DNA of 28,577 nt from a virus, in IMG/VR virus record IMGVR_UViG_3300044645_001666, positions 1-28,577 of that record; one strand, given 5' to 3'. The position numbers and the translations under genes are program-made. This document shows, piece after piece, positions 1 through 28,220 of this stretch. How positions within the stretch are numbered: the first letter of the stretch is position 1; each line of letters starts with the position of its first letter. The notes under the pieces were generated by a model that made no database searches, was not told where the DNA came from, and saw only the letters and a list, made by a program, of their open reading frames with translations.

Positions 1-1638
1 GTCTTGAGTCATGGTCATCATGTCGGTCAGCGCCCTAACAGTGGCGAGCCGCTTGGTGGCGCTACTTGGGCCAACAGAGACGACAACATCATACTCAGCA
101 CTAGACATGTCGTTTTCGTACTCGATCTCGCCCTCTTCATTGACGACAGGCTTGAGTAGCTCAATAGGCTCCATCTTGCCAGACTCGTGAACGGTCTTCA
201 TCTTGCGACCTTCTTCGATGAAGATGTCACGAGCGATAGACAGCCAGACTTCGCCACAACGCTTCACGGCCTTTGCCATGTTAGACATGTAGATGAAAGT
301 CTGCATGTCGAGCCGCTGTTGGATCAGTTCCACAGTCTTACCACTCAAGTGACTGACCATTTTGTCTCCCTGCCCCGGGGAGCCGAGGATCTCTTGCATG
401 TCTACTTCAGTGAGTTGAAGGAGAGCTGCCATAGAGGGCGGCAGGGCGGGAGGCTTAGTGTAGGCCACAGGACCAGCCACCATAGGGCTGCCATTGGCGT
501 CGGTAAGCGTGTTAATCAGCAGGTATGGGTAGTTCTTGAGGTTATCCTCTGCCCACATCAACTGATGTCCCGCCACCTGTTCAGGGACGAGAATGGGCTT
601 CTCCATGGCCGAAAGCGCACTGATCTCACCCAGCTTGGACAACTGCATGTTCTTGAGGCGCTGGGCGTCCTTAGCAAGCCGTACATGGCCCATACAACGC
701 TCGACGTTGTCTACAAACCAACGCTTCCCGTACACAGGGATGATCGGGATGTTCTTGCCGGCAATGTACCCACAATCTTCAAGGATCTTGGCCCCTGACA
801 TGATGTATTTGCGGACCTTCCGCGTCTTAACCTTCTTGCGCCTGACTTCTTTCCAGCCAGTGGCAAGCATCTCCTCTTCTTTGTCGAGTTCTTCAGGCCG
901 GAGCGACTCTTCTTCGCCGTTGAAGTCTTTATAGATCCTGATCTGCTCAGAGACTTCCTCCACCTTGTAGTACTCAGCAACGTAGACCACAGAGGGCGTG
1001 TACCAGTCGAACTGGGAGCGAGTAATGGTCTTGGGCCAGGTCGCGGGGTCATCATCGTACTCAGCCTTGTAGGCTTCACGAGTCATGCTGGTCAGTACAA
1101 AGCACCGCTTGGCATCTGCCTTATCTTGCCGCTTGGCGCCTAGGTCGAAGTAGACACTTGTGTCAGCGTCGAAGATCGGCTCGATACACACACGTTGCTT
1201 ATCGTCTTCCGGGTCTTCTTCGTTCTGATACTCAGTCCTAAGCCTCCAAGCTCCAAAACCACCCATTACAGCCTCTTCAAAGGCGTTATCGTAGGCTTCC
1301 TCTGCCCCTGAGTCCTGCTCATCTGCCCTGTAAAGACCGGCACAAGTGTCAGCGAGCTTGTCGTACTCTTCTCCTTCTTTGGAAGAGAAGTTCACTGTGA
1401 TGCGATTGTTACGATACTCGTTGATGATACGAAGCACCGCCATGTGGATCTTGTTTACCTCGAACCTAGGCTTGTTCTCGAACTGATCACCTAGTGGTCC
1501 TTCCCATTGTGCGCCGGCGAGAGAACAAAACCGCCGGTCCCCAAGGCAGTTCATGCGCTCTTGGTACATCGCGCCCTGAATCTGATCGAACTCTGCGCGG
1601 GCTGCTTGATGGATTATAGAAAGTTTGTCTTCTGTCAT
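1..1638 (-). CDS. P22-type portal protein, C-terminus beyond window
   Basis: The dodecameric portal forms the DNA channel at one capsid vertex and docks the terminase and later the tail. The minus frame is open from ATG at 1638 to base 1 (546 codons, no stop), so the C-terminal part is missing. P22 gp1 is 725 residues. The best recognised block lies near residues 300-325 (YGKRWFVDNVERCMGHVRLA), which matches the P22-like portal family as I remember it. The N-terminus (FEVNKIHMAVLRIINEYRNN) is also typical. The start overlaps the terminase stop (ATGA), giving translational coupling, with only a weak AAGAG upstream. The order large terminase then portal is the P22 order. Family identity is confident; residue-level structure is not checked. 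Confidence 0.93.
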   Translation of the reverse strand, partial: MTEDKLSIIHQAARAEFDQIQGAMYQERMNCLGDRRFCSLAGAQWEGPLGDQFENKPRFEVNKIHMAVLRIINEYRNNRITVNFSSKEGEEYDKLADTCAGLYRADEQDSGAEEAYDNAFEEAVMGGFGAWRLRTEYQNEEDPEDDKQRVCIEPIFDADTSVYFDLGAKRQDKADAKRCFVLTSMTREAYKAEYDDDPATWPKTITRSQFDWYTPSVVYVAEYYKVEEVSEQIRIYKDFNGEEESLRPEELDKEEEMLATGWKEVRRKKVKTRKVRKYIMSGAKILEDCGYIAGKNIPIIPVYGKRWFVDNVERCMGHVRLAKDAQRLKNMQLSKLGEISALSAMEKPILVPEQVAGHQLMWAEDNLKNYPYLLINTLTDANGSPMVAGPVAYTKPPALPPSMAALLQLTEVDMQEILGSPGQGDKMVSHLSGKTVELIQQRLDMQTFIYMSNMAKAVKRCGEVWLSIARDIFIEEGRKMKTVHESGKMEPIELLKPVVNEEGEIEYENDMSSAEYDVVVSVGPSSATKRLATVRALTDMMTMTQD

Positions 1639-3083
1639 CTCTTGAAAAAGTTAATCACTGGCATCACAAATGAGCTATTCCTCTTTGTACCATACTTAGA
1701 TGGAATAGCAGCCCTACTCAAGCCACTAACTACTAAATACCGTGTCGCGTCCATTAAATGGTCGTTATCTTTCACAACCTTCCCCTTTTCATCCCTGCGA
1801 TAAAGGCGAAATTCCGACAACCAGTTCCGAAGATTCGGGAAAACGCGGAGCTTGCCGGCTGACATCGTCTGCCACACCGTGTATAGCCCACTCTCCACTG
1901 CGTTATTCGCCAGAGTTATGTCGAGGCCGTGTCTGCGATACATGCCGAGTAGTTGTTGCCCGTCAGTCTGCGCTCTCCCACGACTGGCTGGGTCAATGAC
2001 CCCTGGCATCTCGCCACGAGCTTTGATCGCCTCAGCGTGCAGAATCGGCTCTGCTTGGCCGCGATAATACTCTGAGTAGAGGTAGGTCACCTCTGTATCC
2101 GGGTTCGTCGCCCCCCAGATAACAGCAGTCCTGTTCCAGCCTACGTCCATGCCGTAGCACCTTCTCCAGTGCTCAGGGATGGCAAACTCTTCACAGATCA
2201 GTTCACTCTCTGGCACTGGGTAAATGGCACCAGCTCCAAGTTGTGGCACGCCTTTAGAACGAGCGTCCCTTTGGAAGGGCGGGATCGACGCCCAAAGCTC
2301 GTCCTTCTGTTGCTTAGTCAGGTGCGGGACATCGTCCCAAGTCGCCATGCCAACGTACTTGCTACCGTTAGACTGCTCTTGCACTTCACCGTTTGGCAGG
2401 AACGACAAGACAGTCTCACTCATCCCCATCAGAGGCGTGAAGGTGAGCATCGTCATCCCGTTGTTGGTCATCGTTCTAAGCAAACACTCTGTGTAGACAT
2501 CCAACGGCGGTTCTTCGTCCAGCCAGATCACATCTTGCTCAGAGCCTTGAAACGCTTCCCGGCGCTGGTCGTAGGACTTGAAGGTAAGCCTAGACTCTCC
2601 ACCACTTGCGTGCCTGACAGTGATGACTTCGATAGCCTCAGCCACCCCTGCCTTGGCAGTAGTCTTGATGAGATCAGCCTTAGGGATGAGTCCCGTGCCA
2701 AACTCCCCAGGTGGCCCTAGGAGCTTCATCTGAAGAATGTCACGAGTCGTCTTGCCAGTATCTCCAGCCGCCCATGCGCTCACTGGCCTATCAAACTTCC
2801 TGCCTTCCCACCATGAGGGATAACGGCCAGTCATATGCAGCACCATCTCGTACCCGCCAATACTCTCAGTTTTGCCGATACGGTTGGCAGCCATCATCAG
2901 CCGCTCCCTATACCGTGCCCCTGCCGCAAAGTAAGCAATGTGCTTGGGATACAGTTCACGCCGGTACTCTCCAGCGTCAGGAAAGTAAGTGCCGATCTTA
3001 CGCTCCTTCCGGCGCCTCAAAGACTCTTCCAGCAAGAGAGTTAGTTCGAGGTTCTTGTCGAGACTATCGAGAAGATCACTCAT
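1635..3083 (-). CDS. Terminase large subunit (P22 gp2-like)
   Basis: ATP-driven packaging motor and headful nuclease. The 482 residues are a normal length. The ATPase domain shows a Walker A at residues 66-73 (ANRIGKTE, G70-K71-T72) and a Walker B at 184-190 (DVIWLDE) whose last acidic residue is the presumed catalytic Glu. The C-terminal RNase H-like nuclease shows three spaced acidic positions: D313 (GMDVGW), D364 (VIDPAS) and D445 (LMDATRY). The start has an AGAGGG Shine-Dalgarno sequence a few bases upstream and overlaps the preceding DUF3310 gene by ATGA. The stop overlaps the portal start by ATGA. The sequence belongs to the P22/Sf6 terminase group, which usually goes with headful packaging. 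Confidence 0.95.
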   Translation of the reverse strand: MSDLLDSLDKNLELTLLLEESLRRRKERKIGTYFPDAGEYRRELYPKHIAYFAAGARYRERLMMAANRIGKTESIGGYEMVLHMTGRYPSWWEGRKFDRPVSAWAAGDTGKTTRDILQMKLLGPPGEFGTGLIPKADLIKTTAKAGVAEAIEVITVRHASGGESRLTFKSYDQRREAFQGSEQDVIWLDEEPPLDVYTECLLRTMTNNGMTMLTFTPLMGMSETVLSFLPNGEVQEQSNGSKYVGMATWDDVPHLTKQQKDELWASIPPFQRDARSKGVPQLGAGAIYPVPESELICEEFAIPEHWRRCYGMDVGWNRTAVIWGATNPDTEVTYLYSEYYRGQAEPILHAEAIKARGEMPGVIDPASRGRAQTDGQQLLGMYRRHGLDITLANNAVESGLYTVWQTMSAGKLRVFPNLRNWLSEFRLYRRDEKGKVVKDNDHLMDATRYLVVSGLSRAAIPSKYGTKRNSSFVMPVINFFKR

Positions 3084-3295
3084 TGCCCTCTGCTCCTGTG
3101 AATCCTAGCAATCTCAAACTCAATGTACTGAGCAGCCTTCTTGAGGTCTTCTACTGGGTCTTCAGTCTTAAGCCCAGCTCTCCAGATGTACTTAATACAG
3201 TTGCCGAGGTTGAAGTTAAACGCCTCTGCAATGGTCACACATTCCACGCCACTTGGGTGCTCAGTGTAGTGCTTGGGGTGGTAAACATCGTTCAT
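3080..3295 (-). CDS. DUF3310 small phage protein
   Basis: A 71-residue protein made up almost entirely of a DUF3310 domain: VYHPKHYTEHPSGVEC, then AFNFNLGNCIKYIWRAG, then DPVEDLKKAAQYIEFEI. DUF3310 proteins are common in tailed phages and are sometimes labelled nucleotide kinase, although I see no P-loop; function is unknown. The frame stays open upstream to a TTG at 3403. I prefer ATG 3295 because the domain begins right after it and because a strong terminator-like hairpin (3302-3334) lies inside the upstream extension. Neither start has a Shine-Dalgarno sequence. The stop overlaps the terminase start by ATGA. In many phages this family sits in the nucleotide-metabolism region, so its place ahead of terminase is somewhat unusual. 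Confidence 0.85.
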   Translation of the reverse strand: MNDVYHPKHYTEHPSGVECVTIAEAFNFNLGNCIKYIWRAGLKTEDPVEDLKKAAQYIEFEIARIHRSRGQ

Positions 3296-3301
3296 ACAAA
3301 G

Positions 3302-3334
3302 AAAAACCCGGACACCATCACACGATGGGCCGGG
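3302..3334 (-). terminator. Intrinsic terminator or attenuator ahead of DUF3310/terminase/portal
   Basis: On the minus strand CCCGG (plus 3330-3334) pairs with CCGGG (3307-3311). An inner stem CCATC/GATGG (3324-3328 with 3315-3319) sits around a GTGT loop, and five T residues (3302-3306) follow. This is a good rho-independent terminator shape. It ends only about 7 bases before the preferred ATG at 3295, so it may act as an attenuator of the terminase-portal transcript. Confidence 0.6.
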
Positions 3335-3421
3335 CCTGTTTGCTTTCCCATCCAGCCATACCCCCGGGTTGACTGGTTGGCATGTAGGCTGAAAGATCTC
3401 CAAGAATCGTGCAAGTATTTT

Positions 3422-3896: not shown

Positions 3897-4268
3897 CTAA
3901 GCAGCGGCACTAGGGTCCAAAACTACGGTGGCCGGGTCGTCCAGAATGGCCTGAAGTTCTTCTAGAATAGACTGATCTTCCGAGGTGAGCACGGGGGTAG
4001 TCTCTGGGGTGATGCCGGCCTCTGGGGTGAGTGCCACTAAAAAGGCATCTACAGTAGCCTTGATCGCCTTGAGCGCCTCACGCTGCTCTTCCACCTTAGC
4101 CTCCAGCGTAACCCTGCTTCTCCGTACTGCCTTCTCTTGCCTAGCCTTTACAGACTCAACCATCCAGGCTGCCTTGAGAGCTGCGCTAACGGATTTCTTT
4201 AATGCACTAATCTGGGGATTAGTTTCTTTGCGAGTACGAGGCTTACGAGTCTTAATGAGTGTTTCCAT
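3897..4268 (-). CDS. Coiled-coil hypothetical protein, 123 aa
   Basis: ATG at 4268 and TAG/TAA-bounded frame give 123 residues in three parts. There is a basic, Lys/Arg/Thr-rich N-terminus (TRKPRTRKE), a long helical segment around residues 22-75 with heptad-like hydrophobic spacing (ALKAAWMVESVKARQEKAV, EAKVEEQREALKAIKA), and an acidic C-terminus rich in Pro, Thr, Glu and Asp. The family is not recognised. A basic head plus acidic tail is compatible with nucleic-acid or scaffold binding, but that is inference. It is the first gene after the long gap that contains the alternating purine-pyrimidine tract. There is no clear Shine-Dalgarno sequence (GTTTGAGTT before ATG). Confidence 0.6.
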   Translation of the reverse strand: METLIKTRKPRTRKETNPQISALKKSVSAALKAAWMVESVKARQEKAVRRSRVTLEAKVEEQREALKAIKATVDAFLVALTPEAGITPETTPVLTSEDQSILEELQAILDDPATVVLDPSAAA

Positions 4269-4723
4269 AACTCAAACAGCGATAGCAGAAGAAGAGGTTT
4301 GTGCAACTGGAAAAAAGAGGGAGGGGGAGACTGGGCTGCTAAACTGAAGAGCTAAGGGTGATGGGGGTGCTGGTTGAGGTTGTGCAGAAGGGCGGCTGTG
4401 TAGGGACCTCGACTTTCTTTTTTATACGCGCGCGCCTGGGGGTGACGCGGGCGTGTGCGTGCGTATACGCGTGCGCGTGTGTATGTGTGCGTACGCGTAC
4501 ACGTTACGCGTACATGTGCGTACGCACGCGAGTATGTGCGCGAGTATGTGCGCACGCGTTTAAACAGCGTTACAATGCCACTTGTGCAGAGTCTGCTGTA
4601 TCGTCCTTGCTTGCCATCAATCGCCAGCGCAAGGGCCCTTTATGTGCGTGCAATCGGTAGCTCTGTGCGTTGTTGTTGCGCACGATTGCGATTTCAATTC
4701 TATATTACTGCTGTTGTATGGCG
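4269..4723. other. 455-bp non-coding gap downstream of the terminase small-subunit-like gene
   Basis: No convincing gene on either strand. The nominal frames are dominated by low-complexity Arg/Thr/Tyr repeats encoded by the alternating tract at 4423-4559. To the left (4269-4422) the minus strand is ordinary mixed sequence. To the right (4560-4723) it is ordinary sequence with a 15-codon frame, MASKDDTADSAQVAL, which I regard as chance. Confidence 0.7.
4423..4559. repeat. Alternating purine-pyrimidine (Z-DNA-prone) tract with palindromes
   Basis: Base by base, 4451-4504 is a perfect 54-bp alternation of purine and pyrimidine, made of GC, GT and a few TA steps. After one phase break it continues for 26 bp (4505-4530), then two further runs (4532-4542 and 4544-4559). 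A 13-bp run (4423-4435) containing CGCGCGCGC precedes it. Embedded palindromes include GCGTATACGC (4461-4470), GTACGCGTAC (4491-4500) and TGCGTACGCA (4517-4526). A 12-bp unit CGAGTATGTGCG is repeated in tandem at 4529-4540 and 4541-4552. GC/GT alternations of this length readily form left-handed DNA under negative supercoiling. Confidence 0.9.
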
Positions 4724-5125
4724 TTATTGATTATCTGCCTCTGTGTCTCTCTGTACAGGCTCCACCACCTCAGCCTGCACCTCGAGCACTGGCTGGCTAG
4801 ACAGGCTATCTGGCGGGCCCATTAAGCCTGCCCGTTGAGCATCTGCGAGTGCACGAGCTGTGCGAGCTTCGAGCTGTGCATCTGTTAGTTCTGTGAGAGC
4901 TGCGAGCAATGGAGAGCCGTCTGCATTGGCGAGTTTAGTCGGGAGTAGCCGAGAGAGCAGAGCGCAAAACGTGCGCGGGTCGTTTCGTCCAACGTGAACC
5001 AAGTAAGACATGCCTCCGAGTTCGGTGAAGGCATTCTCAATCGCTTCTTTGATGGCTACGGTCTGCCGGTTCGGCAGCCCTTTAGGACGACCTGGTCCAG
5101 CTTCGGTGAATCTGTTCTGCGGCAT
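4724..5125 (-). CDS. Terminase small-subunit-like protein (GRPKG / DUF5681-like)
   Basis: 133 residues from ATG 5125, chosen over an upstream in-frame start because AAGGA lies four bases before it and because family proteins begin with a GRPKG-type motif close to the N-terminus (PGRPKGLPNRQT, residues 11-22). A helical segment follows (AIKEAIENAFTELGG), then ARTFCALLS-like sequence RNDPRTFCALLSRLLPTKL. The tail is acidic and Gln/Glu-rich. Such proteins often sit just upstream of large terminases and are taken as DNA-recognising small subunits. Here three small genes and a 455-bp gap separate it from the large subunit, so the role is inferred from family type and order. This is one of the few genes with a clear Shine-Dalgarno sequence. 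Confidence 0.65.
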   Translation of the reverse strand: MPQNRFTEAGPGRPKGLPNRQTVAIKEAIENAFTELGGMSYLVHVGRNDPRTFCALLSRLLPTKLANADGSPLLAALTELTDAQLEARTARALADAQRAGLMGPPDSLSSQPVLEVQAEVVEPVQRDTEADNQ

Positions 5126-5213
5126 TGTTTCCTTTTGGTTTCTTAAACAATTCTCCCCCCGCTTCACTTTTCTTTGCAATCTTTTTTCCCCTACTTAATC
5201 CCCACGCATTTAA

Positions 5214-5419: not shown

Positions 5420-5424
5420 TCTCA

Positions 5425-5444
5425 CCCAACCCAACCCAACCCAA
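5425..5444 (+). repeat. (CCCAA)x4 pentanucleotide repeat in a leader
   Basis: Four exact CCCAA units followed by CCCACACAAA and the ATG at 5455. It sits where a Shine-Dalgarno sequence would be and is one of several A/C-rich leaders in this genome. Confidence 0.9.
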
Positions 5445-5454
5445 CCCACACAAA

Positions 5455-7300: not shown

Positions 7301-7334
7301 GCATTTACACTGTCCCCATTCACCCCCGGTCGCG

Positions 7335-7365
7335 CCCCTTTCCGCCCCTTCCCACCCCTTTTCCC
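7335..7365 (-). other. G-quadruplex motif in the non-coding interval
   Basis: On the minus strand the G-runs are GGG, GGGG, GGG, GGGG and GGGG, the first four separated by loops of 4, 1 and 2 bases. This gives a canonical quadruplex motif just downstream of the plus-strand terminator. Confidence 0.6.
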
Positions 7366-7478: not shown

Positions 7479-7542
7479 AAAGCACCCCTCCAAGCGTGCC
7501 AAAGCACCCCAAAGTGACCCCTAGACCCCCCTAGTGACCCCT
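7479..7542 (+). repeat. Iteron-like direct repeats
   Basis: AAAGCACCCC occurs at 7479-7488 and 7501-7510 (22-bp period). AGTGACCCCT occurs at 7513-7522 and 7533-7542 (20-bp period). The two repeat types are related (AG plus CACCCC or TGACCCC), so four similar units follow one another at about one or two helical turns, ahead of an A+T-rich stretch at 7556-7627. Confidence 0.55.
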
Positions 7543-10000: not shown

Positions 10001-10672
10001 TTAGGAAAAGTTTTCAGCCTCCCGCTTTTTACGAATCTGCTCTGCGATCTCAGCATCAGCCTCGGCAGCAATTGCACGCATCGCCACCATGTACGCCCTG
10101 TCACGTTCCGGCAGGTGCGAAAAGTCGTGGATAATCTCCGGGTTCTTTCGTGGACCACTGCCGCCCGTCAGGGGCGAGCAAGTGGGCTCACTTTTCTCCT
10201 TCTCTGATTTAACGGCGGGGGCTTGAGGCCCCGCCTTAAATCTGTTCTCTTTATCTCTAAAGCGTCCATGTGGTGTACTCACGTGCCGTTCACCACGTGT
10301 ACTCACGTGCAGTTCATGTGGTGGACTGCCGCGTCCATGTGGTGGACTGCTAATCGTGGTCAAAAAAAAGGCATTCCGGGTTGCCCGATAGCCTCCATTT
10401 GAGCCTGAAAACTTGCGGATGAGCCCCTCCTTTTCAAGCGCATCAAGTGCTGCTTTGACGGTTCCCCTAGAGCATCCCACATGCTCTGCGAGCTGCTCGT
10501 ATGACGCCGAAAAACGTCTCTTGTGCTCACTCGCTGCCGCACTTTGGAAGTGGGTAAGTGCGCAGTAAATTGCGTAGGCGTTGATGCCCAGCTTGCCTGC
10601 TTCAACGGCAGCTTCGCGAGTCTGCCAGGCGTATGGACCTTCGTCTTTTGGGTTCTCAGATCGTGGATTCAT
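10001..10672 (-). CDS. Winged-helix replication initiator candidate (lambda O-like organisation), 223 aa
   Basis: Residues about 55-90 form a winged helix-turn-helix (SASYEQLAEHVGCSRGTVKA then ALDALEKEGLIRKF). Residues 108-137 are a low-complexity linker encoded by four iterons. The C-terminal part (HLPERDRAYMVAMRAIAAEA) is helical and charged, possibly for helicase contact. This mirrors lambda O: N-terminal origin-binding domain, origin inside the linker, C-terminal helicase-binding domain. The helicase-like gene lies one gene upstream in the same operon. ATG 10672 gives an ATGA overlap with the previous gene; the TTG at 10681 is less likely. Initiator function is inferred from fold, iterons and context. 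Confidence 0.75.
   Translation of the reverse strand: MNPRSENPKDEGPYAWQTREAAVEAGKLGINAYAIYCALTHFQSAAASEHKRRFSASYEQLAEHVGCSRGTVKAALDALEKEGLIRKFSGSNGGYRATRNAFFLTTISSPPHGRGSPPHELHVSTRGERHVSTPHGRFRDKENRFKAGPQAPAVKSEKEKSEPTCSPLTGGSGPRKNPEIIHDFSHLPERDRAYMVAMRAIAAEADAEIAEQIRKKREAENFS
10262..10350 (-). other. Candidate replication origin: four iterons inside the initiator gene
   Basis: Four units of 19-25 bp in tandem: A 10262-10286, B 10287-10310, C 10311-10329, D 10330-10350. CATGTGGTGGACTGC is identical in C and D. GTACTCACGTGC is identical in A and B. GCGTCCATGTGGTG is identical in A and D. In gene direction the block is followed by A+T-rich sequence (CTTTAGAGATAAAGAG, 10262 downwards) and preceded by an A8 run on the plus strand near 10361. 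Iterons plus A+T-rich flank inside an initiator gene is the lambdoid origin layout. Confidence 0.75.
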
Positions 10673-11214
10673 TTCTCGCAACTATAGACTGTTTCTTGAA
10701 GTTTCAACTTTGGCAGTTCGTTTTTCGTGAAACTGTGGTCAATGAAGCGCACTCGGTTGGTGGGCTGGATTGTCAGTCTACCATTGTTTAACTTCACAAA
10801 GATAAACTCCTTGTCCTGATCCGGGCTGTCTGACCAGCCGTCGTGTAGGTGCGTTACAGAGAACAGATACTCTCCATGCAGCACCTTATCTTCCCACACT
10901 ACAATGACCTCCAGCCCACGCATGATTGGGCTCTGCAGCACAGTGAAATCGTAGCTGTAGCAATCCCACAACTGTGCGGCTCTGATACACCAAGGCGCAG
11001 CGTCCTCACTAAACGCCACTGCATGAGGAGGGATGTTGCGGTACAGAGCACCTCCGTCTCGAAGGATGACGTTGATCCCCCATGCTCGCCCAGGGATGGC
11101 TGTCAGGCCCACCCACATGGCTTCGACTAGGCCACAGGGCTCTGCATGAGTGTACTGACTGTCCACCCATATGTAGCGGTGTGTTGGTAGTGCTCCGATT
11201 TTAGTGTAGTTCAT
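10669..11214 (-). CDS. Conserved-looking hypothetical protein, 181 aa
   Basis: ATG 11214 overlaps the helicase stop by ATGA; an upstream in-frame start at 11268 would overlap the helicase further and is not preferred. The 181 residues contain a Trp/Tyr-rich beta-like first half (RYIWVDSQYTHAEPCGLVEA, GLTAIPGRAWGINVILRDGG) and a second half with GEYLFSVTHLHDGWSDSPDQ and FIFVKLNNGRL. No Cys/His cluster, P-loop or membrane segment is visible. I do not recognise the family. Its position between helicase and initiator, coupled at both ends, suggests an early replication or takeover role. Confidence 0.7.
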   Translation of the reverse strand: MNYTKIGALPTHRYIWVDSQYTHAEPCGLVEAMWVGLTAIPGRAWGINVILRDGGALYRNIPPHAVAFSEDAAPWCIRAAQLWDCYSYDFTVLQSPIMRGLEVIVVWEDKVLHGEYLFSVTHLHDGWSDSPDQDKEFIFVKLNNGRLTIQPTNRVRFIDHSFTKNELPKLKLQETVYSCEK

Positions 11215-12545
11215 TTTCTTTTCTTGGGTTTCTCTTCGATTGGTTCTGGCTTGTAACACTGCTGCCAAATCATGCCGTGTCTGTCTGGTGTAGGGCTGTG
11301 GCGAATGTAGATCTTCGACGTAGGCGCTCCCTTCTCAAAGCACTTGATGTTCGAGCGTAGCCGGCGCTTCGTCATAGTCAGACTACACGTCAAAGGCTGG
11401 TTATCCTCTGTCTCGACTCGCTGCAGCGTGATAACCTCTCTGGCCCAGTTCGTCAGCGCGGACGATCCAAAGCCAGAGTAAGCCAAGTCAGAATCAGTCC
11501 TTGCAGAGTTCTCTTTAGGCTTAGGCAAGTGATGTATAACTGCAAGTAACACACCTGTCTTGGTGCTGATCCTGTTTAGCTCGTTACAGAACTGGGTCAC
11601 TACCTTCTGGTCACTGATGTCATCACCTAAGTAGCACATCAAAGGGTCAATCCAGACAACGTCCGGGGAGTGCTTGAGCACTAGTGTCTCCAATACTCGG
11701 ATGAACTCTGCACCAGAGTGAATGTTGTCGCGGTAAAAGACTAGACGCTCGTTAAGAAGCTCTCTTTCAGCCTCTCCACACTGGCTTTTCCCGTACTTGC
11801 AAAACACAGATTGCAAGATCTCAGCCTGATCGCCCTGGTCGTTCTCGGCCTGTATAATCAAGCTCTTGAGAGGCTTAACCGGGATCAGTCCAAACGTCAG
11901 CACCTCAGAGAATGCGCCTATGCCATGTAACGCCCAGCCGATTGCCAACTGCATAGTCAGACTGCTCTTTCCAATTCCCGATTGAGCATTTATGAGCACA
12001 CTGCCACCTTTGCATAGCCAACGGTTGCCGATCAGCGTGTTGCTATCGTGCTCCGTATCATAGAACAGTAGGTCATTAAACGTGCTCTGTACTATAGCGC
12101 CTAGGCCACGTTCAGCGTTCGCCGTCAGCGTTGCCACACTAAGGCCCGCTACAACGTCTTCTATGGCCTCTCCAGTCGATATGGCATGAGTAGCCTTGAG
12201 TAAAGAGGCAAGCAGCACCCTGCGCCGGGCTGCGTCTTGGACGAGTTCGCACCAGCTCGGAAGCGGTTCCAGACTCGGCATCCCGGTGGACAACTCAGAC
12301 AGGAGCGAGTACGGGATACCACCTTTGGCAAGGCGTGTAGCCAGCCCGATTGGGTCCATGCTCAGGCCGGCCCTAGCACCTTCTTGGATGCCGGCAAAGA
12401 TTTGCCCGAACTGGGGATTATGAAAGTCGCCCTGGGTCAGCCCCTTGGCGGCAATAGTCGGCAGTGCTAGGTCAGGTGCGAATAGTAGACACCCCAGCAC
12501 TGCCCGCTCGGCTTTCTCAGCCTGCGGGATAGTTGGCTCTCTCAT
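11211..12545 (-). CDS. Replicative helicase: DnaB-type N-domain plus RepA/AAA_25-like ATPase, 444 aa
   Basis: Residues about 8-75 match the DnaB N-terminal domain (KAERAVLGCLLFAPDLALPT, GLTQGDFHNPQFGQIFAGIQ). The ATPase resembles RepA/AAA_25 rather than classic DnaB: Walker A NAQSGIGKSS at 186-195 (K193), a conserved Glu in IQAEND (E234), Walker B DVVWID at 295-300 and the VIHHLPKP strand near 336-343. The C-terminus is basic (EKPKKRK). It probably unwinds the fork, loaded by the winged-helix initiator two genes downstream. The upstream gene stops at 12548, two bases before the ATG, without a clear Shine-Dalgarno sequence. Swapped or hybrid helicases of this type occur in phages; hexamer formation is inferred. 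Confidence 0.85.
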   Translation of the reverse strand: MREPTIPQAEKAERAVLGCLLFAPDLALPTIAAKGLTQGDFHNPQFGQIFAGIQEGARAGLSMDPIGLATRLAKGGIPYSLLSELSTGMPSLEPLPSWCELVQDAARRRVLLASLLKATHAISTGEAIEDVVAGLSVATLTANAERGLGAIVQSTFNDLLFYDTEHDSNTLIGNRWLCKGGSVLINAQSGIGKSSLTMQLAIGWALHGIGAFSEVLTFGLIPVKPLKSLIIQAENDQGDQAEILQSVFCKYGKSQCGEAERELLNERLVFYRDNIHSGAEFIRVLETLVLKHSPDVVWIDPLMCYLGDDISDQKVVTQFCNELNRISTKTGVLLAVIHHLPKPKENSARTDSDLAYSGFGSSALTNWAREVITLQRVETEDNQPLTCSLTMTKRRLRSNIKCFEKGAPTSKIYIRHSPTPDRHGMIWQQCYKPEPIEEKPKKRK

Positions 12546-27026: not shown

Positions 27027-28220
27027 TTATGCAGGTGAATACCATCCTCCAGCACCACCTGGAGCTGTGGGCGCAAAATACTCAACAGGAGCACCTCCGT
27101 AAGCAGACTGAGCCGCTGCTTGGCTGCCATAAAATCCGCCAGTGCCAATCCCAGAAGTCATGGATGGCTTGTTAAGCTGTTGCATCAGCATGTAGTTTTG
27201 AACTCCACCGCCAATAGCATTGCTAACTCCACCAAGTCCCTGAGCAAACGCATTTGCGGCACCAATCTGACCACCAGCCATTGCAGCACCTTGACCAACC
27301 ATCAAGTTGCCAATGTTTTGAGCAGCGTTCTGCTGTGCTGCTGCTGTGCCGGCAGCCGAAGCCTGACCAACACCGAGCAGGTTCTGAGCAGAACCAGATC
27401 CAAGGCTTGTAAGCCCAGCCAGCTTGCCATACTGCGCTTCGATGAGCTGGTTTAACAGGTTTGGCCTAAACTGAGCCAAGGCGCCCTGTACGTTGCCACC
27501 TCGAAGTCCACCAGTGGCAGAGGCATTTTGCAAGATGCCTTGTTCGCCCTGTTTGGCAAGCTCCTGAAACAATGGTCCCTGCTCGATGCCTTGGATCGCT
27601 TGACGCTGCCGTTCTGCGCCAAGTTGAGCATAGCTCTGATCCTGAAGGATCGGCTGCATCAACGCTTCACGTTCCGCGTAAGCCTTAGACTCAATGTCTC
27701 GAATGCCAGCTTGAGTCTGATTTTGAAACTGAGCCAACAGACCAGCTTGAATGTCTTTTCTCGATACTCCTTTTGGCGTGGGAGCCTTTTTGTAATCTGC
27801 TGACTTTTGGAACGCCTTTAGCTCTACATCTCTCTGACGTTGGTAATTTGCAATGTTGGCCTTTGTAACATCAGCAATATTAGTAAACTGAGGAGACTGT
27901 TGAAGCTGATAGAGAGCACGTTGACGATCTGCTTCACCACCAAGACCAACCAAAGCCTGCATTCCTTGCAGTGCCCCAGGACCAGCCTGAATATACGGTT
28001 GCGTGAGTCCCGGTTGACCAGCTTGAATGTAAGGAGAAAGAAGCTCGCGAATGGCGTCAAACTGACGGCGCTGCTCATCAATGGCCTGTCCTTGTGCCTT
28101 GGCCTGTGTTGCGGCAGCTTGCTTTGAAGCCTTAGCTCCCTTGTTTGACCCATAAATTGAAGCTCCAGCACCTAAAAGTGCAGCTCCACCAGTTAAGATT
28201 CCACCAGTTGGATCAGGCAT
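27027..28220 (-). CDS. DNA-ejection protein (P22 gp7-position), 397 aa
   Basis: 397 residues. The N-terminus MPDPTGGILTGGAALLGAGA then SIYGSNKGAKASKQAAATQA and the RRQFDAIRELLSPYIQAG motif are characteristic of P22 gp7-like/DNA transfer proteins found in many podoviruses. A long Gln/Ala-rich middle and a Gly-rich C-terminus (GQGAAMAGGQIGAANAFAQG, ending GGAGGWYSPA) follow. It is probably ejected into the host envelope. ATG overlaps the previous stop by eight bases; leader TTACAAAACCGAATTTT has no Shine-Dalgarno sequence. Confidence 0.8.
   Translation of the reverse strand: MPDPTGGILTGGAALLGAGASIYGSNKGAKASKQAAATQAKAQGQAIDEQRRQFDAIRELLSPYIQAGQPGLTQPYIQAGPGALQGMQALVGLGGEADRQRALYQLQQSPQFTNIADVTKANIANYQRQRDVELKAFQKSADYKKAPTPKGVSRKDIQAGLLAQFQNQTQAGIRDIESKAYAEREALMQPILQDQSYAQLGAERQRQAIQGIEQGPLFQELAKQGEQGILQNASATGGLRGGNVQGALAQFRPNLLNQLIEAQYGKLAGLTSLGSGSAQNLLGVGQASAAGTAAAQQNAAQNIGNLMVGQGAAMAGGQIGAANAFAQGLGGVSNAIGGGVQNYMLMQQLNKPSMTSGIGTGGFYGSQAAAQSAYGGAPVEYFAPTAPGGAGGWYSPA

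Follow-up and report, generated by a model that had tools for sequence, protein, structure and literature searches.

Lambdoid phages exchange operators and immunity regions, and close relatives thereby trade cis sites that differ in specificity. Alternating GC, GT and GTAC tracts can form Z-DNA when the DNA is supercoiled, and it is a long-standing question whether Z-DNA-forming sequences act in bacteria and phages or are mere curiosities. Two further kinds of site bear on the locus described here: the pac sites of P22- and SPP1-type phages, present as a single site near terminase, and the NrdR boxes that occur in pairs in ribonucleotide-reductase promoters. These boxes have the published consensus acaCwAtATaTwGtg (PMC4009431), and functional NrdR sites consist of two boxes approximately 31–32 bp apart (PMC2892513), with a 15–16-bp spacer and three helical turns between the centres, strong binding needing both boxes (PMC12051234).

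The window, i.e. the whole stretch of DNA analysed, is a 28,577-bp IMG/VR virus record of a P22-like phage whose closest named relative by large terminase (terL) is EBPR podovirus 1, at 60% identity. Its other genes include those for a tail-spike/pectate-lyase-like protein, a RecT-like protein, an exonuclease, a DnaB-like helicase and an O-like initiator. The features needed for what follows are these:

1635..3083, minus strand: large terminase gene (Terminase_6N, Terminase_6C)
3080..3403, minus strand: 107-aa ORF, similar to the C-terminal region of several phage nucleotide-kinase PHROGs
3897..4268, minus strand: p123, the gene nearest to the element on its downstream side, of unknown function (gene listing and comparison)
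4423..4559, no strand: type-A cassette, an alternating purine–pyrimidine tract of 137 bp (run analysis, and the same position in eight relatives)
4560..4690, no strand: left flank, common to L079, L087, L057 and L022 only, with no stable reading frame
4724..5179, minus strand: 151-aa ORF (132 aa if translation starts at ATG 5122), phrog_11043, of unknown function
27027–28220: phrog_598 DNA-ejection match

The gap between p123 and the 151-aa ORF (4269–4723, 455 bp) holds the tract and contains no convincing gene, in agreement with the earlier note, which had described it as gene-free. Mechanically listed ORFs do cross the tract; a 2-base indel between relatives breaks their frames, and the tract is therefore taken to be non-coding. 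Strict purine–pyrimidine runs were located at 4451–4504 (54 bp), 4505–4530 (26 bp), 4544–4559 (16 bp), 4423–4435 (13 bp) and 4532–4542 (11 bp). The longest alternating run elsewhere in the window is 12 bp, and when the window was simulated 300 times with a first-order Markov model the longest run per simulation was 11–23 bp. The 54-bp perfect alternation noted earlier was confirmed; given the tract's own dinucleotide make-up, a run of this length has P = 0.027. Three further phased runs had also been claimed. The extra runs are present, but they are not in phase with one another, because every boundary is a phase break. A 12-bp tandem unit, likewise claimed, was found at 4527–4553 (CGCGAGTATGTG × 2.2, 100% match). 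The tract is barely repetitive, containing short partial tandem arrays only (best TRF score 54), and TRF detected no high-scoring tandem array across it of the kind that defines a simple-sequence repeat. Self-complementarity of the tract as single-stranded DNA was not above that of dinucleotide shuffles (z = −0.78), which argues against a cruciform or hairpin DNA and indicates that the short palindromes in the tract are there because of the alternation. The tract strand folded as RNA scored better than shuffles (z = −2.5), and given this fold the tract may have a role at the RNA level.

The propensity of the tract for Z-DNA was estimated with a two-state model using Z-Hunt-type energies of the literature, rather than a dedicated tool, and an assumed 5-kb domain. 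The predicted B–Z midpoint was |σ| ~0.042 for the tract and 0.059 for the median 200-bp stretch, making the tract the most Z-prone place of the window by this estimate, in line with the Z-proneness proposed in the earlier note. In both of the other type-A genomes scanned, the type-A tracts came first or close to first. By the two-state estimate the predicted transition falls within physiological supercoiling. The purine–pyrimidine alternation exceeds chance, as expected of a Z-DNA-forming sequence, and the tract shares with the GC/GT/GTAC tracts that form Z-DNA on supercoiled DNA the alternation, the CG/CA/TG-rich steps and a predicted transition at moderate negative supercoiling. Unlike them, it is no simple dinucleotide repeat, its Z-form is a prediction, and it occupies a conserved slot in which it is exchangeable with operator-like cassettes.

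Approximately 100 related loci were retrieved with terL and the 151-aa protein, and the same gap was read in them. Beside the tract lies a conserved, single-copy core, the parts of which are as follows in the window:

4402..4445, minus strand: core TCACCCC...AAGTCGAGGTCCCT, 44 bp in the window and 44 or 45 bp in relatives (alignment)
4438..4445, minus strand: core motif TCACCCCC
4423..4435, minus strand: internal spacer, which alternates in type A (GCGCGCGCGTATA) and in no other type
4402..4415, minus strand: core motif AAGTCGAGGTCCCT

On the terL strand the core reads TCACCCC(C)AG...AAGAAAGTCGAGGTCCCTAC, and the starts of TCACCCC and AAGTCGAGG are 31 or 32 bp apart in the alignment. A pattern search found the core in 39 viral contigs and one unrelated actinomycete sequence, the latter being the single, chance-like match obtained when prophage copies were sought in bacterial genomes. 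After removal of duplicates, the element set used below has 39 members, the window together with 38 contigs of related phages. The core occurs once per genome, G010 having one additional TCGAGGTGCCT elsewhere. No sigma-70-like promoter (−35 and −10 hexamers 16–18 bp apart) was found at the core, the TATA-like bases of which are absent from several type-A phages. Terminator-like hairpins with T-runs lie between the core and the coding sequence in two relatives (L028 and L008), consistent with transcription control; none was found between the two in the window. A structured RNA element was rejected, since Rfam gave no match and RNAalifold found no conserved fold at the core (0.0, 38 sequences).

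The earlier note had placed the tract beside a gene resembling the small terminase subunit and had inferred a packaging function. The proximity to terminase was borne out, the tract belonging to a conserved site directly upstream of the terminase operon. The assignment of the 151-aa gene was not supported: its product matches phrog_11043 only, profile comparison did not link it to the TerS annotated in EBPR podovirus 1, and its AlphaFold model is poor (pLDDT 53); it stays a small-terminase candidate by position only. Across relatives this protein has a conserved body with exchangeable N-terminal modules (GRPKG-type, WKHQLTGGSRKG-type and PGERxxGRxKG-type). A further exchangeable segment follows the stop codon of the homologous gene in L005, L013 and L061, and in some phages the segment at this place carries an inverted repeat like a tRNA T-arm (GACTCGAACCTATAGTTCGAGTC).

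On the packaging reading, the core would be the pac site of a headful phage and the cassette an accessory bent or twisted DNA that aids terminase docking or pausing. The P22-type gene set with terL downstream fits this, as do the presence of one core per genome, the asymmetric, fixed-length form of the core and its marginal likeness to the P22 pac 22-mer (PMC9611059; local gapped alignment, p 0.008–0.18 for six cores). Against it, an ungapped scan places the best matches to pac at other positions of the window, profile comparison identified no small terminase beside the core, and the paired NrdR-like boxes found in sister phages suit transcription, not packaging. A packaging role appears unlikely. 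Like P22/SPP1-type pac sites, the core is present once, close to terminase, and the gene order around it is P22-like; it differs in that it lies outside any identified small-terminase gene and that the DNA upstream is variable.

Directly upstream, the core adjoins an exchangeable cassette, of which four types were distinguished by eye among the 39 elements. Type A, the alternating tract, is present in nine (the window, L022, L023, L028, L029, L057, L079, L087 and L103; L029 is truncated by its contig end and was typed from the spacer). Nineteen elements are type B, with boxes matching the published NrdR box; nine are type C, with TGTACA-type palindromes such as AATGTACACTAGATCAGTGTACATT; and two, showing no clear site, are type D. 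Types B and C have the appearance of operators. The cassette type changes at least 14 times on the terL tree (35 rows), type A at least five times, and the upstream gene predicts the type no better than does the terL tree. L043 (type B) and L055 (type C) have almost identical terL and different cassettes, and L028 (type A) and L100 (type D) have both flanks in common around different cassettes. The tract was thus found at the same place in eight relatives, all of type A. The earlier note had held that absence from otherwise collinear relatives would count against a role for it. Taken literally, that absence was observed, as 30 of the 39 elements are without the tract; yet nearly all of these hold other operator-like cassettes there, so that the question moves from a pac site to an exchangeable regulatory cassette. 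As in lambdoid operator and immunity-region exchange, close phages here trade cis sites that differ in specificity. Unlike in the lambdoid case, one of the cassette types lacks a conserved motif, and the search for a partner regulator gene exchanged along with the site found none: among the ORF clusters of 18 relatives no phage gene tracked type A as a cognate regulator would (two of the three type-A genomes being incomplete). A type-A-specific pattern search returned no members outside the clade.

Type-B boxes follow the pattern CCACWAN4TWGTGG (19 elements). In 16 of the 19 they form pairs (CWA-N4-TWG) with 31 or 32 bp between centres, which is the published NrdR spacing, and in most the proximal box begins 26–31 bp before TCACCCC. 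From motif and spacing, type-B cassettes look like NrdR sites, to which NrdR would be predicted to bind; in keeping with a link to infection, genes of the NrdR regulon are induced when pneumococcus is lytically infected by phage (PMC6755750). The type-B slot of the sister phages thus has the same consensus and 31–32-bp spacing as the paired boxes of ribonucleotide-reductase promoters. Unlike those promoters, the locus has p123 and terminase as its downstream genes, and the window's own element carries no NrdR box pair. The type-B cassettes suggest that these phages may control their own genes via NrdR, with which the host senses dNTP supply; the literature searched contained no report of phages using NrdR in this way. 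Within the clade, NrdR-like pairs occur at type-B loci including L008, L013 and L043. Such pairs also occur in unrelated phage contigs (L176–L197), where they are mostly intergenic and have a DNA ligase, an SNF2 helicase, a methylase and an HTH/IrrE protein among their neighbours.

Our preferred reading, which we hold tentatively and put at just short of an even call, is that the tract is the type-A allele of an exchangeable cis-regulatory cassette that times the packaging/late operon, type A acting via structure and type B via NrdR. The whole element would be a transcription-control site setting the timing of that operon. In type B, the host dNTP-sensing repressor NrdR would read the boxes and let go as dATP drops during replication. 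In type A, the alternation on both sides of TCACCCC would flip to the Z-form or take up twist under negative supercoiling, and this change of twist or form in the flanks of TCACCCC would alter the use of the core. The structural reading is proposed for type A because neither a conserved motif nor an exclusive gene was found for it, and the window cassette probably acts through DNA structure. Weighing against the reading as a whole are the negative search for a sigma-70-like promoter at the core, the TATA-like bases missing there in several type-A phages, the negative search for a gene tracking type A, and the RNA fold score of the tract strand. It is rather unlikely that the slot is more generally a plug-in site for infection-state sensors, in which a host dNTP sensor (the NrdR pair) and a supercoiling-reading, Z-prone tract are freely exchanged.

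Type A is defined by its alternation, beyond which tracts of separate lineages mostly have no sequence in common; this favours structure over sequence as what is read. We compared five type-A tracts (the window, L022, L023, L028 and L103) with shuffles keeping the YR steps. Eight of the ten pairs were no more alike than shuffled alternating DNA (p 0.11–0.95), and the remaining two were weakly alike (the window with L022, p = 0.02; L028 with L103, p = 0.01). Alternation extends beyond TCACCCC into the core spacer, with a run of 11–15 in eight of nine type-A elements (6 in L103) and of at most 5 in the other 30. Among the four closest tracts all 12 substitutions are transitions and so leave the alternation intact, and the sole indel is one dinucleotide; in the aligned flanks, transitions account for 25 columns and transversions for 22 (Fisher p = 0.002 against the tract). 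When the comparison was restricted to context-matched, alternating flank sites (12:0 compared with 11:4), the excess of transitions was not significant (p = 0.11), so that a mutational bias among YR units could also account for it.

This last result bears on whether the slot is neutral hypervariable DNA, a recombination hotspot in which slippage and YR-unit exchange would keep the alternation without selection. The CA runs in the L028 and L057 tracts and the one-dinucleotide indel would also be expected if this were so. It is nevertheless an improbable account of the window tract, which is hardly repetitive (TRF score ≤54) and is less variable than its flanks among the four closest relatives (p = 0.004); alternation recurs at the same slot in several lineages and also within the fixed-length core spacer, and the slot otherwise holds operator-like palindromes.

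Another possibility is a sequence-specific operator array, in which the tract offers short motifs for binding by a protein of host or phage and the alternation is incidental. A central part of ~48 bp that includes the direct repeat TGTACGCGTA is identical in the window, L079, L087 and L057, and types B and C are themselves operator-like. This part is absent from L022, L023, L028 and L103, however, and most type-A pairs are alike only to the chance level for alternating DNA, leaving an operator array a poor prospect. That multicopy phage operators merely act as decoys, titrating host repressors (NrdR in type B) and so raising dNTP synthesis, with the proximity to terminase incidental, is most improbable, since position and spacing are fixed relative to the core and the window tract offers no NrdR box for titration, despite the rise of NrdR-regulon genes in lytic phage infection of pneumococcus (PMC6755750) and the box pairs adjoining unrelated genes in other phages.

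Returning to the cassette reading, the Z-prone tract has been swapped for operator-like sites several times in nature at one fixed position, and these swaps thus provide matched alleles for a direct test of the function of a Z-prone tract in a phage.

Some further observations were made outside the slot. Two relatives have another alternating stretch, C-rich and degenerate, downstream of the small early genes (L133:14700–14860 and L161:720–830); in the window the corresponding place is occupied by other short repeats (7333–7361 and 7513–7542). A perfect tandem array of ACCCA × 5 is found at 5424–5448 of the window, in a gap that precedes plus-strand ORFs. Finally, a 199-aa ORF at 10669–11268, between the helicase and O-like initiator genes, matches phrog_3704 (annotated ferredoxin, E = 1e-28).
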